Assembly: GCF_000735355.1 (NCBI RefSeq)
Contig: NZ_JMPI01000022.1
Span: 186,025-250,024 of the forward strand
Reading direction: 5' to 3'
DNA: 64,000 bases
DNA from: Buttiauxella agrestis ATCC 33320
GTDB lineage: Bacteria; Pseudomonadota; Gammaproteobacteria; Enterobacterales; Enterobacteriaceae
Positions 44,325 to 58,063 of the stretch are shown in pieces. A model generated the notes under the pieces. It was not told where the DNA came from, did not search any database, and worked only from the letters and a program-made list of their open reading frames with translations. Positions within the stretch are counted from its first letter, which is position 1; each line of letters opens with the position of its first letter. The position numbers and the translations under genes are program-made.

Positions 44325-45247
<923 letters not shown>

Positions 45248-45279
45248 CGACGTGCCGAAAGGCCGACGAAAACAAAAAC

Positions 45280-45355
45280 GGATTGTTACTGCTGCGGCAG
45301 GCAAAACCTGAGCACTGGCTTCTCCTTGAGGGAAGTCGGTCTCAGGTTTTTTTTT
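45280..45355 (+). promoter_or_regulatory. Second antitermination site and terminator between bglG and bglF
   Basis: GGATTGTTACTGCTGCGGCA plus GGCAAAACC (45280-45308) is identical over 29 bases to the site before bglG. AAAACCTGAG (45303-45312) pairs with CTCAGGTTTT (45341-45350), followed by a long T-run. This two-site layout is the classical bgl operon arrangement. Confidence 0.95.
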
Positions 45356-45386
45356 ACTTTACTCAGTCATATATGCCGAAAGGTGA

Positions 45387-48663
<3,277 letters not shown>

Positions 48664-49750: not shown

Positions 49751-49834
49751 TCAGAAAATCATCTTAAACACGCCAGTAACGACCAATAAGCCAATAATAA
49801 AGATAATCAAAATTGCCCAAAGAATAATTTTCAT
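49751..49834 (-). CDS. yohP: Small membrane protein YohP
   Basis: A 27-residue single-helix membrane protein whose mRNA in E. coli is itself directed to the membrane. The minus strand reads MKIILWAILIIFIIGLLVVT followed by GVFKMIF and TGA, differing from E. coli YohP (as I remember it) at only two conservative positions. GGGAG lies eight bases before ATG. It is too short for ordinary gene finders. It keeps its K-12 place between dusC and mdtQ, although large modules have been inserted on both sides. Confidence 0.92.
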   Translation of the reverse strand: MKIILWAILIIFIIGLLVVTGVFKMIF

Positions 49835-49940: not shown

Positions 49941-50678
49941 TTAGATTAGAGGCTTACGCGCAGCAAGCAGGAAAATCATCGGGCGTTCTTTTTCTTCATC
50001 AAGCGCCGGGTTCTGGGCGATTTGTTCAGCGTCTGGCCCCCATTCATCGAGTTTTTCGATAATAAAACCGCTGGCAATCAGCGCGTTTATCCAGCTCGAA
50101 AGTTTGCGATGTTGTTTCTTCACGCCGTCCGCAAACCAGTTGCTGATACGCACGCCTTCCAGCTGATAATGATTCACCGGCCAGGATTTTTGCCCGGTCT
50201 GATCGGTCATCCAGCCTTGTTGCAACGGGGCGGTATAAATCGGATGCTCTGCCGAAAACACCAGCATGCCACCGGGAACCAGCGCCTGATAAAGCGTGTT
50301 GAAAAGTGCCGGAATATTTTCCAGATAATGCAGCGCCAGCGAGCTGTAAAACAGGTCAACACTTTGTACTTCCGGCTGTAACTGCTCCAGATCTTCACGG
50401 CGATAAACAATGCCCGCGCCCGTGGTCATTTCCTGTGCTTTTTCGAGCATTTTCAACGAGACATCCAGGCCCAACACATTTGCTGCACCCTGGTCACGTG
50501 CGTAGCGGCAAAACCAACCGTATCCGCAGCCTAAGTCCACCACCGTTTTACCTTGTAACGGTGGTAAAAATGTTTGTATGGTTGCCCATTCCGGTGCGCC
50601 ATCTAACCCTTTAATGGAGCGGTCAAGAGTGGCGTATCCTTCAAAAAATGCCGGGTTATCATAGATATTTTGTGTCAT
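49941..50678 (-). CDS. Class I SAM-dependent methyltransferase
   Basis: 245 residues from ATG 50678 behind CAGGAG. The SAM-binding glycine motif is VVDLGCGYGWFCRYARDQGA (about 46-65). Further blocks are VLGLDVSLKMLEKA, VDLFYSSLALHYLENI and LVPGGMLVFSAEHPIYT, the layout of Methyltransf_11-type small-molecule enzymes. Substrate unknown. It follows the porin gene in the same direction, but a perfect 13-pair hairpin lies between, so it may be a separate unit. No K-12 counterpart at this place. Confidence 0.88.
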   Translation of the reverse strand: MTQNIYDNPAFFEGYATLDRSIKGLDGAPEWATIQTFLPPLQGKTVVDLGCGYGWFCRYARDQGAANVLGLDVSLKMLEKAQEMTTGAGIVYRREDLEQLQPEVQSVDLFYSSLALHYLENIPALFNTLYQALVPGGMLVFSAEHPIYTAPLQQGWMTDQTGQKSWPVNHYQLEGVRISNWFADGVKKQHRKLSSWINALIASGFIIEKLDEWGPDAEQIAQNPALDEEKERPMIFLLAARKPLI

Positions 50679-50730
50679 TGCAACTCCTGTTCGCAAAGCC
50701 GTGATTGGCAGAAGAAGTCTAATGAAGTTA

Positions 50731-50760
50731 TTAACCTGGGGAAAGGGTTCCCCAGGTTAA
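50731..50760 (-). terminator. Perfect 13-pair hairpin after the porin gene
   Basis: TTAACCTGGGGAA (50731-50743) and TTCCCCAGGTTAA (50748-50760) with a four-base loop. It lies 17 bases past the porin stop on the minus strand. The following TAACTTCATTAG is only weakly T-rich, but the stem strength makes it a likely end of the rhamnoside operon. Confidence 0.75.
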
Positions 50761-50777
50761 GGGTGGAGCTTTTCCTG

Positions 50778-52364
<1,587 letters not shown>

Positions 52365-52411
52365 TTAATTCCTTGTAAAAACCAGAGGTGTTTTTTAATT
52401 AAACTTCTTGA

Positions 52412-53791
52412 TTACATCGCACGACTCTTATTTAAATTAAATGCAGGGTCTGAATTGGCTGCGTTAATACCAGAATCTAAATCGGCACGGATTTGTTCGT
52501 AATGGTCATCGAGGCGATAAAATTTACCTATCCACAACATTGAGACGATAATTAGCGCCGCAGGAATATAGAGATAGCAGGCTTTGATCGCGAATAAAGC
52601 ATCAACACTTTGTGCGTGATTAGCCACATAACCGCTGGCGGAGAGCATAATTCCGGTAATAGCGCCCGCACCGGCCATCGCCACTTTACCCAGGAAACCA
52701 TTAATGGAGGTTAAAATTCCGGCGGTATTAATTCCGGTTTTCCAGACGCCGTAATCAACCGGGTCCGCCTGCATTGAGAAATAAATCGCGGTACGTTGCC
52801 CGGCGCCAAGTGACAAAATAACTGCCCCTGCGACCAGTGCCATCACGTTCACACCTGCGAAAATCATCACCGCCATACCCGCCAGGTTTATAGCAGAGGC
52901 GACAAGATAGACGTGGCGTTTTTTCATGCGTTTTGCCAGCAACGGAACCGTCAGCGTACCCAATAATGGTACGAAGGTGGAGATCCCGGCCACCAGCGCG
53001 GTTAATTCGCTATTGCCGACGTAGTAATTAAAGAAGTACACCAGTGCGCCCGTCTGGAAGAAAAAGGCACCCCACATCAGGAAGATATTCACTGCAAAAA
53101 CAAACCACGGCGGGTTATTGCGCAGGCTGACCCAGGCACGTTTTAAGGTCATCTTTTCTGAGGTGATATTGATTTTCTCTTCGACATTGCGAAAGCTAAT
53201 CAGCAAAAAGAAGGTCGCAATCACGCCAAATACCATCGCGGTATATAAGAAACCGTGCTCCTGATTGCCCTGGCCCAGCGCTTTTACCAGCGGCAATGTG
53301 GCGACGGCGACAATCGTCGAACCTAGCGAGCCCAGCAAGATGCGTACCGTTGAAAGTGTGGTGCGCTCTTTGGATTCACTGGTCAGGAAGGGCAGCATCG
53401 CGCAGAACGGGATGTTGACGATGGTATAGAGAAACGACAGACACAAATAGGTGATGAAGGCGTAAATCAGCCGGCCTGTGGTGCCAAAATCGGGTACGTA
53501 AAACGCCAGCACACACAGCAAGCCGAAAGGCACCGCACCAATCAGCAGATAAGGGCGGCAGCGGCCCCAACGGGTGCTGGTGTTATCAATCACCAGCCCC
53601 ATCAGTACATCCGCGACGCCATCCACCAGACGTGCCACAAGGAACATCAGGCCAACATAATAGGCGGGTAGCCCCATCACATCGGTATAAAAGTACATCA
53701 GGTACAACGAGATCATTTGCCACACGAGGTTGCAGGACAAGTCCGCAATGCCGTAGCCGAAGCGTTGCCGCCATACAGTAGAGGTAGACAT
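52412..53791 (-). CDS. GPH-family glycoside/cation symporter
   Basis: 459 residues with twelve hydrophobic segments, of the glycoside-pentoside-hexuronide (MelB/YicJ/XynT) family that imports sugars with Na+ or H+. The N-terminal FGYGIADLSCNLVWQMISLYLMYFYTDVMGL and VDGVADVLMGLVIDNTSTRWGRCRPYLL carry the family cation-site Asp residues. FCAMLPFLTSESKERTTLSTVR is the conserved helix 4 loop. It lies between the GH78 gene (24 bases upstream) and the porin (50 bases downstream) in one direction, so co-transcription is likely. Confidence 0.92.
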   Translation of the reverse strand: MSTSTVWRQRFGYGIADLSCNLVWQMISLYLMYFYTDVMGLPAYYVGLMFLVARLVDGVADVLMGLVIDNTSTRWGRCRPYLLIGAVPFGLLCVLAFYVPDFGTTGRLIYAFITYLCLSFLYTIVNIPFCAMLPFLTSESKERTTLSTVRILLGSLGSTIVAVATLPLVKALGQGNQEHGFLYTAMVFGVIATFFLLISFRNVEEKINITSEKMTLKRAWVSLRNNPPWFVFAVNIFLMWGAFFFQTGALVYFFNYYVGNSELTALVAGISTFVPLLGTLTVPLLAKRMKKRHVYLVASAINLAGMAVMIFAGVNVMALVAGAVILSLGAGQRTAIYFSMQADPVDYGVWKTGINTAGILTSINGFLGKVAMAGAGAITGIMLSASGYVANHAQSVDALFAIKACYLYIPAALIIVSMLWIGKFYRLDDHYEQIRADLDSGINAANSDPAFNLNKSRAM

Positions 53792-53815
53792 AAGTAGGTT
53801 CTCGACGTTGTTGTT

Positions 53816-55390
53816 TTACAGTAGGTACTTTCTAATGAACCACGAAGGAGTGCAGCTCCAGGCGTGGCAATAGCTGTTGATGAGCTTGCTGCCATAAGGG
53901 GAAAAATCAGGCCGTAGCGGATCAAAAAGCTCCCAGAAGGTATCGGCTCCGTGTTCCACCATCGCCCCCCAGTAGCGTTTGATCTCGTGAGTGGCTTGCT
54001 CTCGCTCATTCACCTGCAACAACGCCGCGACGTAATGATGCATCATGTAGGGCGTGTTCATCTGAATTTCCGGTGGATGAGTTAACAGATGGGCTAACAA
54101 CTGGCGTTGGCTTTCCGGCGTACCGACATCTGCCAACACCAGCCAGACCTGCGAAGCGCAGGAAATTTGTCGCGATTCACCACTGACGAAAAAGCCGCTT
54201 TGTGGATCCCAAAGTTCGCGCAGTGCCGCACTTTTCAGCGTCGTAATCTGTGCTTCAAGCCATGTGACTTTGCTGCTGTCATAAGTACGCGCCAGCATTA
54301 ATGCTTTGTTGAGGCAGTAGATCAGCACCCCCTGAGACGCCGCTTGCTTGTTGAGGTCTTCGTGCCAGTCAATAAATGACCACCAGTCGCTGCTGTCACG
54401 CACGATACCGTTTTCAGCGACTCGCGCCATGGCCAGCTCGATTTGCCGCCAGGCGAGCGGCCAAAGCTGCGCCAGTGTTTCGCTGTCATCAGTCACCGCG
54501 ACGTACTCTTGCAGCACATCGACAAAAAACAGTGCGTAATCGAACAGGAAAGTATCGTCAGCAATGACTTGCGGCTTAACAAAAATATTCGCCGACACCA
54601 TGCCATCTTCCCGCGTCATGGCAGCGAAAAGATAAAGACAGCGTTTGACCAGGGAGTAATTTTGCACCGTGACATCATTCACCAGCGCTTGCAGGCGCAA
54701 ATCACCGAGCCACAAGCGGCGGTCGCGTTTGGGTCCGTCTTCAAATACGTCGTGCATGCAGTTTTTCAGGGTGTTAACGGCCACCTCATCAATGCGTTTT
54801 AACTGAAGATCCACGGTCTCGCAGGCGGGTAGGGTGGCAAGCGACGCGGAAGTGACGGTATCGAGCTTCAGAGAGGTAAAACGCAGTTGGAATTTGCGTG
54901 ACAGCGCCAGAACGTTAATGCGCAGATAGCGGCAGCAGTAACGACGTGAAAGTCGCGTATGGCCTGGCAATTCATCCAGATAACAGTCCTGCTGCTGGAG
55001 CCAGCTGCTGCTCAACCAACCGTTATATTCAGAAAAAGGCTCAACCACTTCTGCGAGCGTTTCACCAAAGATAAATTGCAGATGCGCTGGAGCATCTGGC
55101 GGGCTGCCGACCGCTTCGCAGGTAAACTCCAGGTAACCGATGCAATGCTTGCCGAAATCAATAATGACGTGCTCGCCCTGCGCGAAATCGTATTGGAAGA
55201 AATCTTCTGCGCTGTTCACGACATCCGCTCGCCAACCGTGAATTTGCTGCGCATCCGGCTGCGCGCTAATCATCGCCTGGGGGAGAACATCATGGTGATA
55301 GAGTTCAGGAATGAGTTCCTGTGCTTTGGCCAACATATGTGGATGACGAACCATCTTTAGATGACCATTTTTCTGCAATGCCTGTGACAT
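53816..55390 (-). CDS. GH78-type alpha-L-rhamnosidase (short cytoplasmic form)
   Basis: 524 residues, no signal peptide, so active in the cytoplasm. It has an N-terminal beta-sandwich (about 55-180, IIDFGKHCIGYLEF, LQFIFGET) and an (alpha/alpha)6 barrel. The catalytic-loop motif DGPKRDRRLWLGD (218-230) has the D-x4-x-x6-D spacing of GH78 (D567, E572, D579 in Bacillus RhaB), with Asp223 where the general acid Glu usually lies. The base-region ADTFWELFDP and the C-terminal LINSYCHAWSCTPSWFIRKYL complete the family pattern. It would release rhamnose from imported rhamnosides. It is much shorter than most GH78 enzymes. It is first in the operon and divergent from the AraC regulator. Confidence 0.85.
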   Translation of the reverse strand: MSQALQKNGHLKMVRHPHMLAKAQELIPELYHHDVLPQAMISAQPDAQQIHGWRADVVNSAEDFFQYDFAQGEHVIIDFGKHCIGYLEFTCEAVGSPPDAPAHLQFIFGETLAEVVEPFSEYNGWLSSSWLQQQDCYLDELPGHTRLSRRYCCRYLRINVLALSRKFQLRFTSLKLDTVTSASLATLPACETVDLQLKRIDEVAVNTLKNCMHDVFEDGPKRDRRLWLGDLRLQALVNDVTVQNYSLVKRCLYLFAAMTREDGMVSANIFVKPQVIADDTFLFDYALFFVDVLQEYVAVTDDSETLAQLWPLAWRQIELAMARVAENGIVRDSSDWWSFIDWHEDLNKQAASQGVLIYCLNKALMLARTYDSSKVTWLEAQITTLKSAALRELWDPQSGFFVSGESRQISCASQVWLVLADVGTPESQRQLLAHLLTHPPEIQMNTPYMMHHYVAALLQVNEREQATHEIKRYWGAMVEHGADTFWELFDPLRPDFSPYGSKLINSYCHAWSCTPSWFIRKYLL

Positions 55391-55599
55391 ACCGAGCCCT
55401 TAATGATGAAGCAATGAGCCGAGTTTAGAGGGCAACTCTGTTTTTCATCTATTCTCAGGCTGCCAGTAATTGTTAGTGAATGGCATTTTCAGTGGGGTGC
55501 AGTGGTTGGTTGTCACAATTTAAAAAATCGGGATCGTTATTTAGGCCGGAGTGTTTTATTTTTCCCACAGTCCAGAGTGGTGGGTTTTGCGAGAACGTA

Positions 55600-56427
55600 A
55601 TGATTAATAAGTTAGAAGTCAGTAAGTATTTTCCCGATGAGCAGACCAAGCTTTCTCTTTATGCCAGCGACCCGGAAGACAACAACTGCGAGCATAGCCA
55701 TAGCTTTCAGGAACTGGTGATTGTTGAGGAAGGGCACGGCCTGCATGTGATTAATGGCAAGCCGATTTTTATCCAGCAGGGCGATGTGTTTTTTATTGGC
55801 GAGAACGATGTTCATTTTTACGATGAATTGGGCACCTTAAAGCTCATCAATATTTTAATTAATCCGCAGCTGGAGTTTGTTTATTTAACCGGAATAGAAC
55901 AATTATTGAACCGTATTGCGGGCAACACGGCGGCAAATTACGGCTGGCTTACGCCGGAGACTAAAGCACACTGCAAACGGTTGATTAACGACATTTTCCA
56001 TCAGCAGAGTTCGGGCGTTGAAAATCAGGCTTTAAAAGAGTCGCTGTTTTTTACCTTAGTGACGCAAATCATTTATGCGCAGTCGCAGGCTGAATACAGC
56101 AATACCCGCTACAAACTGCATAAGTTACTCAGCTATTTGCAAGAAAACTGCTTTAACGAGATTGACTGGCAGCAACTGGCAAATCAGTTTCACCTGACTC
56201 AACGTACCACGTCACGACATATTAAAGAGGTGACGGGGCTGACGCCGGAAAACTATCTGAAACGCCTGCGCCTGGTCTCGGCGCGAGTCAAGCTCAAAGA
56301 AACCGACATGACGATTACCGAAGTGGCTTTTTTGTGTGGCTTTGCCAACAGCAACCATTTCACCACCTCGTATAAGAAAGTTTTTGGCGTAACGCCGAGT
56401 GCTGAGCGCAAACGGGTGGAAAGGTGA
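55600..56427 (+). CDS. AraC-family regulator of the rhamnoside cluster
   Basis: 275 residues from ATG 55600. An N-terminal cupin domain (ELVIVEEGHGLHVINGKPIFIQQGDVFFIGENDVHFY, about 37-75) would bind a sugar. Two AraC-type helix-turn-helix units at the C-terminus (LANQFHLTQRTTSRHIKEVTGLTPENYLKRLRL and ITEVAFLCGFANSNHFTTSYKKVFGVTPS) bind DNA. It resembles RhaS/RhaR in plan, which fits a rhamnose-type inducer. It is divergent from the GH78 operon across about 210 bases that must hold both promoters. The frame from 55480 adds 40 unlikely residues. Confidence 0.9.
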   Translation: MINKLEVSKYFPDEQTKLSLYASDPEDNNCEHSHSFQELVIVEEGHGLHVINGKPIFIQQGDVFFIGENDVHFYDELGTLKLINILINPQLEFVYLTGIEQLLNRIAGNTAANYGWLTPETKAHCKRLINDIFHQQSSGVENQALKESLFFTLVTQIIYAQSQAEYSNTRYKLHKLLSYLQENCFNEIDWQQLANQFHLTQRTTSRHIKEVTGLTPENYLKRLRLVSARVKLKETDMTITEVAFLCGFANSNHFTTSYKKVFGVTPSAERKRVER

Positions 56428-56614: not shown

Positions 56615-58063
56615 ATGACTTCCTCACGTTTCCCTCTCGCGGCGACTGGCGTCGCGTTAATGCTCGTTTTGTCCGGCTGTGCGCCAATGCACAATAACGA
56701 TGCACCTCTCGCACAAAAAACTCCTCCACAACAGTTGGATACCAAACTACCTCCTGAACTGGCGCATGGTTGGCCGGGCAGTGACTGGTGGCGTGATTAT
56801 CATGACAGCCAGATTAATACGCTGGTTGAACGTTCGCTGAAAGACTCTCCGGATCTGGCCGTCGTGCAGCAGCGCATTAAACTTGCGCAGGCGCAGACGC
56901 AAATGCAGGAGGCCAGTGACGGCCCGCAAATGGATTTCTCCGCCAATATTGAGCGTCAGAAAATGTCTCAGGAAGGGGTGATGGGTCCATTCGCATTGAC
57001 TGACCCGGCGGCTGGCACCACCGGCCCGTATTACACCAACGGTACCTTTGGGCTGACGGCAAGTTGGGATCTGGATTTGTGGGGCAAAAATCGCTCGGAA
57101 GTGGAAGCGAAAGTGGGCGTCATGAGAGCGAAACAGGCTGAACTTGCCCAGGCCAAACAGGTGATTTCGGCAAACGTCGTGCGCTTGTATTGGGATATGC
57201 AAACGCTGCTGGCGTTAAAAGATGTCAAACAGCAAACCCTCGCAGCACAGAAAAATATCGTTGATGTCGAGACAAAACTTTATGCGCGAGGGATCAATTC
57301 ATCGGTTGATAATGTTGAACCCAATATTGATTACGTGAAAACTCAGCAGCAACTCGATGACATCGAAGGGCGCATCAATATTGCTAAAGCGCAGCTTGCT
57401 GCAATTACCGGCGATGCGCATGCGGCTTCCAATATCCGACGTGTCGAACTGCCGAAAGTGAAATCGAGCGTGCCTGAAAATATGGGGTATGAACTGCTGG
57501 CTCGCCGCCCGGACCTTCAGGAAGCGCACTGGTATATCGAATCCTCATTGAGCAGTGTTGATGCCGCAAAAGCTGCGTTTTACCCGGATGTGAACCTGGG
57601 GGCGTTCCTGCAAAATGATGCACTGCACCTGAGTGATTTGTTCCGTGGCTCGGCTCAGCAAATGGGTATTATCGGCGGCTTCACGCTGCCTATCTTCGAC
57701 AGTGGCCGACTGAACGCGAATCTCGATATTGTTCGCGCAGAAAGTAATTTGTCGATTGCCAGCTACAACAAAGCGGTGGTCGGTGCGGTGAATGACGTTG
57801 AAAAAGCGGCCAGCCAGTTGAATGCCGTAGCGGCTGAAAACCAGCATCAGAAGACGGTATTGCAAGCCACTCATAAACTCACAACTCTTGCTCAGGCGCG
57901 TTATAAAGCAGGTGTGATTTCAGGAGCCAGATTCAGTGCTGCAACCTTGCCGGAGCTGTCAGAACAGGCGAAAGCCATTCAACTCCACGGGCAGTGGCTC
58001 AATGCTGACGTGCAGTTAATCTCTGCGCTCGGTGGCGGTTATCATCAATCTGGTAAGGCATAA
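56615..58063 (+). CDS. mdtQ: Outer-membrane efflux lipoprotein MdtQ (intact)
   Basis: A TolC-like outer-membrane factor of the NodT/CusC lipoprotein branch. It has 482 residues; the lipoprotein signal ends LVLSGC (Cys22). SDWWRDYHDSQINTLVERSLKDSPDL, MDFSANIERQKMSQEGVMGPFALTDPAAGTTGPYYTNGTFGLTASWDLDLWGKNR and ELLARRPDLQEAHWYIESS match E. coli YohG/MdtQ block by block. In E. coli K-12 this gene is broken; here the frame is complete. No pump subunits are adjacent. It is followed by yohF as in K-12. Confidence 0.93.
   Translation: MTSSRFPLAATGVALMLVLSGCAPMHNNDAPLAQKTPPQQLDTKLPPELAHGWPGSDWWRDYHDSQINTLVERSLKDSPDLAVVQQRIKLAQAQTQMQEASDGPQMDFSANIERQKMSQEGVMGPFALTDPAAGTTGPYYTNGTFGLTASWDLDLWGKNRSEVEAKVGVMRAKQAELAQAKQVISANVVRLYWDMQTLLALKDVKQQTLAAQKNIVDVETKLYARGINSSVDNVEPNIDYVKTQQQLDDIEGRINIAKAQLAAITGDAHAASNIRRVELPKVKSSVPENMGYELLARRPDLQEAHWYIESSLSSVDAAKAAFYPDVNLGAFLQNDALHLSDLFRGSAQQMGIIGGFTLPIFDSGRLNANLDIVRAESNLSIASYNKAVVGAVNDVEKAASQLNAVAAENQHQKTVLQATHKLTTLAQARYKAGVISGARFSAATLPELSEQAKAIQLHGQWLNADVQLISALGGGYHQSGKA

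Follow-up and report, generated by a model that had tools for sequence, protein, structure and literature searches.

A Probable Alpha-L-Rhamnoside Utilisation Cassette with a rhaBAD-Type Promoter in Buttiauxella

Closest Described Systems

The operons for melibiose, raffinose and sucrose (mel, raf and scr) combine a porin, a transporter, a cytoplasmic glycosidase and a local regulator. A block with the same overall layout is described here, at positions 50778-56427 of a 64,000-nucleotide stretch ("the window") of contig NZ_JMPI01000022.1, from a Buttiauxella genome in 93 contigs (G000). It differs from those operons in its glycosidase, which is of family GH78, and in its regulator, which belongs to the RhaS branch, and it would work like a melibiose-type operon. 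The block can be read, with a probability of roughly 0.87, as a self-contained cassette for the utilisation of alpha-L-rhamnosides. The sequence basis of this reading consists of the protein families, the enzyme pocket residues, an operator and its likeness to rhaB promoters, and the presence of rhaBAD and rhaT in the genome. Every protein family and the layout itself are already known, and the cassette is a well-formed, fairly ordinary sugar operon.

The closest described enzyme is KoRha, a GH78 protein of Klebsiella oxytoca with two domains and a rhamnose bound in its crystal pocket (PMC4690510). It is presented as exo-acting on terminal rhamnose, with Asp222 as the probable acid and Glu486 as the probable base, and as active on p-nitrophenyl-rhamnoside and rutin; the available text of that paper describes no operon (PMC4690510). 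The RhaS regulon has been reconstructed by Rodionova et al. in 2013, with mention of rhiTN and rhiABC, and the main text of that study contains no occurrence of GPH, porin or Klebsiella (PMC3870299). A Vibrio island has also been reported, in which a rhamnosidase gene lies beside rhamnose genes and a phosphotransferase system (PTS) (PMC6537148). No published description of the present operon was found by title and abstract start in the open-licence literature.

Gene Content and the GH78 Enzyme

The cassette consists of four genes:

53816..55390, minus strand: GH78 alpha-L-rhamnosidase, 524 amino acids (aa), two domains (Pfam; PDB phmmer against 4xhc)
52412..53791, minus strand: glycoside-pentoside-hexuronide (GPH):cation symporter, 459 aa, inner membrane (TIGR00792, PF13347)
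50778..52361, minus strand: LamB/ScrY-type outer-membrane sugar porin with an N-terminal extension, 527 aa (PF02264, PF11471)
55600..56427, plus strand: divergent RhaS-like AraC-family regulator, 275 aa (NF010028, 234 bits)

All four reading frames are open at these positions, according to the open reading frames of the window and to family searches. The family models bear out the initial annotation, which had proposed a porin, a GPH symporter, a GH78 enzyme and a divergent RhaS-like AraC regulator. The regulator start that it gave, 55480, is probably too far upstream. Position 55600 is the most likely start, since the RhaS model begins there and the longer frame would overlap the predicted operator. 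The intergenic gaps, 24 bp between the GH78 and GPH genes and 50 bp between the GPH and porin genes, are compatible with a single operon.

Both a GH78 N domain and a six-hairpin catalytic domain are detected by Pfam in the enzyme (PF21104, 181 bits, E 1e-53, cut-off 27; PF17389, 77 bits, E 2e-21, cut-off 24.5). Its best PDB match is KoRha (4xhc), with 751.6 bits over 522 aa by phmmer, the next match reaching 101 bits. The two enzymes thus share their two-domain make-up and a match over the whole length, as well as the pocket, of which all 11 residues named in the KoRha paper are identical in the alignment; they differ in the first 205 residues, which are 55% identical. D223 and E487, aligned to D222 and E486 of KoRha, are the predicted catalytic acid and base. 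The nearest named relative of the enzyme is that of B. agrestis ATCC 33320 (98%). Inspection by eye shows no signal peptide, and the enzyme therefore probably acts in the cytoplasm. The locus would provide the crystallised Klebsiella-type rhamnosidase with a probable physiological setting: a porin, a symporter, a regulator, an operator and a testable promoter.

The porin matches PF02264 (310 bits, E 4e-92, cut-off 25.1) and, by its N-terminal extension, PF11471 (29.1 bits, cut-off 25.7), and its best PDB match is the sucrose porin 1a0s (E 4e-134). The symporter reaches 411 bits for TIGR00792 (cut-off 231), and PF13347 is also matched. It stays below the curated cut-offs of all the narrower GPH models listed, so no sugar can be assigned to it from the models. 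A distant blastn search of the porin and GPH DNA against E. coli (the GH78 DNA was not searched) matched 990 records, but in no case over 80% of the query; those listed, 20 in number, cover 15% of it, on a carbohydrate porin, at about 64% identity.

A Promoter of the rhaBAD Type

The strongest functional clue, absent from the initial annotation, is the rhaBAD-type promoter between the GH78 and regulator genes, with the following elements:

55448..55498, minus strand: predicted operator of the regulator, made up of two inverted 18-nt half-sites with a 15-nt spacer (27/27 orthologous promoters)
55513..55517, minus strand: TGTGA, 19 nt ahead of the operator, probable half-site for CRP (27/27 orthologues)
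55422..55427, minus strand: TAAACT, predicted as the -10 box of the operon (from similar hexamers at nearly equal distance in aligned orthologues)

The conserved pattern was found by aligning the GH78-AraC intergenic regions, and the search pattern was drawn from the same alignment. The paired half-sites, the first of which has the rough consensus ACCYCACTNNNANTGCCA, occur in all 27 cassette promoters (26 distinct, locus L093 repeating L010), and TGTGA begins exactly 19 nt before the first half-site in each. An operator matrix was then built from 20 non-Buttiauxella cassettes, leaving out the six Buttiauxella ones and L093. Applied to the window, it gives 27.8 for the cassette site (23.5 reversed), the next site in the 64 kb scoring 9.8. 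Within the genome's own 19-kb rha locus the rhaB promoter comes top with 19.6, followed by its own reverse reading (12.2), and another 19-kb region of the same genome contains no site above 2.1. The rhaB promoter also ranks first in a 7-kb rha stretch of K-12 (20.9, at a 14-nt spacer). TGTGA stands at the identical 19-nt offset before the genome's own rhaB and rhaT operators. The predicted operon promoter is not among eight sigma-70-like sites (8.0 expected by chance), which may be expected if it is activator-dependent.

The cassette promoter appears to follow the rhaBAD plan, with the inverted half-sites as the predicted operator of its regulator. It shares with the enterobacterial RhaS regulon (rhaBAD and rhaT, with rhiTN in Erwinia chrysanthemi) the operator layout, the TGTGA offset and a RhaS-like helix-turn-helix (HTH) part. 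It differs by having a dedicated RhaS paralogue, whose ligand domain shares just 27% identity with that of RhaS and which would control a GPH symporter and a GH78 enzyme.

The membership of rhiTN in this regulon raises the question of pectin. A cassette for the uptake of rhamnogalacturonan fragments, comparable to rhiTN in Dickeya (Erwinia chrysanthemi), is nevertheless very improbable. Rhamnogalacturonan lyase products end in an unsaturated uronate, and the cassette includes no lyase or unsaturated-uronide hydrolase gene (the genome itself was not searched for rhiN). The exo action of KoRha on terminal rhamnose argues in the same direction (PMC4690510). In E. chrysanthemi rhiTN is likewise under RhaS control (PMC3870299), so that the presence of a rha-type promoter would by itself suit pectin fragments as well as the small rhamnosides favoured here.

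The Regulator as a RhaS Paralogue

The best NCBIfam model of the regulator is RhaS (NF010028), at 234 bits, below the equivalog cut-off of 288, and a true RhaS with 516 bits for the same model is encoded at C68 of the same genome; the regulator is thus a RhaS-like paralogue and not RhaS itself. Another RhaS-like gene, at C73 (L084), was set aside as part of another system, judging by the sequences of its neighbours. The HTH part of the regulator is 44% identical to the genome's own RhaS and 27% to its RhaR, the corresponding values for the cupin part being 27% and 26%. Positions 202, 206, 250 and 252 of RhaS are DNA contacts; Arg202 and Arg206 are conserved in all 22 regulator orthologues.

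The regulator might be a duplicated RhaS that has kept its DNA grip, as suggested by the HTH identity and the two arginines, and rebuilt its sensor, as suggested by the divergent cupin part. It would then be induced by rhamnosides rather than by free rhamnose and share operators with RhaS. This combined proposal is tentative and, taken as a whole, rather doubtful. If it is true, an incoming rhamnoside could pre-induce rhaBAD ahead of any rhamnose release. The RhaS/paralogue pair would offer a clean case for studying how activators of the AraC family change ligand at a constant DNA site.

Distribution and Coherence of the Cassette

GH78 proteins were searched at E < 1e-30 in 392 genomes drawn from the family, 21 of which encode one. 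A close type, 55-100% identical to the window enzyme, is found in 15 of the 392, from 10 genera, and a distant type (39-45%) at seven loci in seven genomes, one of which, G087, has both types. The AraC and GPH genes accompany the close type in 15/15 genomes and the porin in 12/15. The view that a ScrY/BglH-type porin together with GH78 defines the system, put forward in the initial annotation, was therefore too strong, the constant core being AraC-GH78-GPH. In genome G103 (same locus as L010), the regulator is split over two frames. Outside Buttiauxella, a search for the gene set in other enterobacteria found the cassette in Leclercia, Silvania, Huaxiibacter, Chimaeribacter and Gilliamella, within several different neighbourhoods. 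It would offer enterobacteria a compact, transferable route to plant-derived rhamnosides.

The four proteins diverge in step, their pairwise distances being correlated (r 0.87-0.92, with 0/2000 permutations as high) over 18 loci, 13 of them with a porin, that were retained from the 22 supplied after dropping four further Buttiauxella. Joint travel of the genes would produce such a correlation, as would shared descent.

A ScrY-type porin is absent from four of the five Gilliamella loci; L008, the remaining one, stops too close behind the GPH gene to judge. L007, L009 and L011 share one protein in the porin place, the L007 copy being a RafY-type glycoporin (PF16966). In L007, rhaD-like, rhaM and iron alcohol dehydrogenase genes lie within about 10 kb of the cassette; rhaM and the iron alcohol dehydrogenase gene are also seen in L009 and L011.

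A comparable AraC-GPH-GH78 trio exists in Bacillota, at 6 of 17 loci (L014, L018, L021, L023, L025 and L028). There the GPH and GH78 genes are adjacent, with an AraC-like gene nearby, and their products are 53-55% and 47-50% identical to those of the cassette, respectively. The trio differs by the lack of a porin and by its regulator, at most 29% identical. The remaining 11 Bacillota loci show no GPH gene near GH78.

Rhamnose Catabolism and Proposed Function

The genome encodes RhaB, RhaA, RhaD, RhaS and RhaT above curated cut-offs, as well as a RhaR above those of two models out of three and a rhamnose ATP-binding cassette (ABC) binding protein. rhaA is present in 17/17 close-type genomes tested. 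Within the 392-genome draw, it is found in 15/15 close-type genomes versus 172/377 others (Fisher p 1e-5, relatedness being ignored, and with small-genome symbionts among the 377 lowering the base rate). Among the six genomes with the distant type alone, three, all of one genus, are without rhaA. An enzyme acting on another sugar, alpha-L-mannosides for example, is scarcely credible in view of this co-occurrence, of the rha-type operator and of the 11 pocket residues shared with rhamnose-bound KoRha. Separately, in G370 (L103) a distant-type GH78 gene and a LamB-type porin gene adjoin rhamnose catabolic genes, with an aldehyde dehydrogenase-like gene in between (by eye).

In the scheme that we infer for the exact substrate, the inducer, the transport steps, the cytoplasmic location and the role of CRP, small soluble rhamnosides, likely disaccharides (rutinose, neohesperidose) or small aryl rhamnosides, would cross the outer membrane through the ScrY-type porin and then be taken over the inner membrane by the GPH symporter together with a cation. 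In the cytoplasm, GH78 would act as an inverting enzyme, with Asp223 as acid and Glu487 as base, and cut off the terminal L-rhamnose. The freed rhamnose would enter the chromosomal rhaA-rhaB-rhaD pathway, the leftover sugar or aglycone going elsewhere. The RhaS-like regulator and CRP would activate the operon at its rhaBAD-type promoter. The uptake-and-cleavage route, inserted as a block, that had been suggested for this locus is in this way supported for alpha-L-rhamnosides, as far as sequence comparison can tell.

Several observations weigh against this reading. The porin is missing in three of the 15 close-type genomes (G374, G305 and G348). Because the operator was first seen in the cassette alignment, only the rha promoters test it independently: the genome's own rhaT scores 10.2, barely over the best chance site of the window (9.8), K-12 rhaB needs the 14-nt spacer (14, 15 and 16 were tried), and K-12 rhaT reaches only 8.2. 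A whole-genome operator pattern, one base off for the cassette, found rhaB and rhaT and missed the cassette site, and it gave four further, probably chance, sites (0 in a reversed control). On its right arm, the CRP site shows no conservation. Asn252 of the regulator is kept in only 17/22 orthologues, and position 250 is Asn in 22/22 versus Asp in RhaS. Finally, the aglycone site of KoRha is presumed to be relatively non-specific (PMC4690510).

The neighbourhood of the cassette brings in a further alternative. A BglG antiterminator, a beta-glucoside PTS and a 6-phospho-beta-glucosidase adjoin it (44405-48663), and are probably backbone genes outside the cassette, given that the glucosidase is found in 9/10 other Buttiauxella loci. 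The substrates could instead be intact flavonoid or terpene rhamnosides, the gain being the glucoside or aglycone and these bgl neighbours taking the rest. Rutin is indeed cleaved by KoRha (PMC4690510), and in five genomes a distant-type GH78 gene lies in a bglG-bglF-6-phospho-beta-glucosidase cluster; the glucosidase there shares 76-80% identity with the window neighbour. However, the distant type has an RR signal-like N-terminus (7/7, by eye) and no GPH partner. The window enzyme probably works in the cytoplasm, and there its product would be out of reach of the PTS. Of the cassette-free congener loci, 5/6 also have the bgl genes, and rutin-size molecules are probably large for a ScrY-type pore. 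This alternative is thus unlikely, and small rhamnosides cleaved for their rhamnose are preferred.

The five distant-type clusters, L098-L102 (e.g. L102:4005-13200), form a layout of their own. The GH78 proteins, 41-44% identical to the window enzyme and with the RR signal-like N-terminus, are encoded within the bglG-bglF-6-phospho-beta-glucosidase cluster, followed in 5/5 by a porin-like gene, whose relative in L103 is LamB by family search, and by a gene resembling nucleoside hydrolases, as tested for L098. This suggests periplasmic removal of rhamnose, then PTS uptake of the beta-glucoside.

Insertion Site and Mobility

The surroundings of the cassette comprise the following features:

50731..50760, minus strand: hairpin with a 13-bp stem, between the porin and methyltransferase genes (fold z = -3.6)
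49941..50696, minus strand: left flank, gene of a class I methyltransferase from the genus backbone; probable ATG at 50678
49751..49834, minus strand: yohP, 27 aa, backbone (K-12 gene order)
56615..58063, plus strand: mdtQ, right flank, backbone (NF008524, 706 bits, cut-off 650)

The hairpin is the probable end of the operon. The strong hairpin noted earlier ahead of the methyltransferase is real as regards its stem and stable fold (a 91-nt stretch folds at z = -3.6, with 0/200 shuffles equally stable); it lacks a long T-run, and a T-run scan that lists 10 terminator-like sites (8.6 expected by chance) does not include it.

The gene that we take to be yohP, after the K-12 protein, is not the left border of the insertion, which lies between the methyltransferase gene and mdtQ and not, as first described, between yohP and mdtQ. 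K-12 has indeed nothing comparable here, only yohP and an mdtQ pseudogene 223 bp apart. The methyltransferase, initially seen as a companion gene, belongs to the genus backbone. It was rejected as a cassette member, being present in 10/10 other Buttiauxella loci at mdtQ, six of them cassette-free, and it was not found in the stretches fetched around non-Buttiauxella cassettes. In B. warmboldiae (L004), which carries the cassette, the methyltransferase has been lost and mdtQ is just a remnant.

Among 12 Buttiauxella genomes, 11 have mdtQ, and G397 shows no match. The gap between the methyltransferase and mdtQ contains the cassette in five (G000, G392, G165, G374 and G395, the last two without porin), a major facilitator superfamily (MFS) plus HxlR gene pair in three (one pair confirmed by family search), another small insert in one (G396), and nothing in two, where about 240 bp (G250) and 230 bp (G394) separate the two genes. 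Of the six cassette-free genomes, G250, G317 and G019 show no GH78 genome-wide at E < 1e-30 (G393, G394, G396 and G397 were outside that search).

Between 50500 and 56499, the 500-base bins are 96-99% identical to B. agrestis DNA, versus 73-92% in the aligned bins outside. This contrast and the empty sites of two congeners indicate that the cassette probably moves by recombination. G250, which is without the block, is the closest congener for most flank genes; for the methyltransferase and 6-phospho-beta-glucosidase genes, B. agrestis is nearer. The simplest reading of these comparisons would be that species have recently exchanged the cassette via recombination in the flanks. No clear target duplication or direct repeat was seen at the cassette borders, by eye, with the flanks side by side. 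In G395 (L078:8070-8815) there is no porin and the methyltransferase reads over two frames, which would fit a deletion fusing the cassette end to the methyltransferase.

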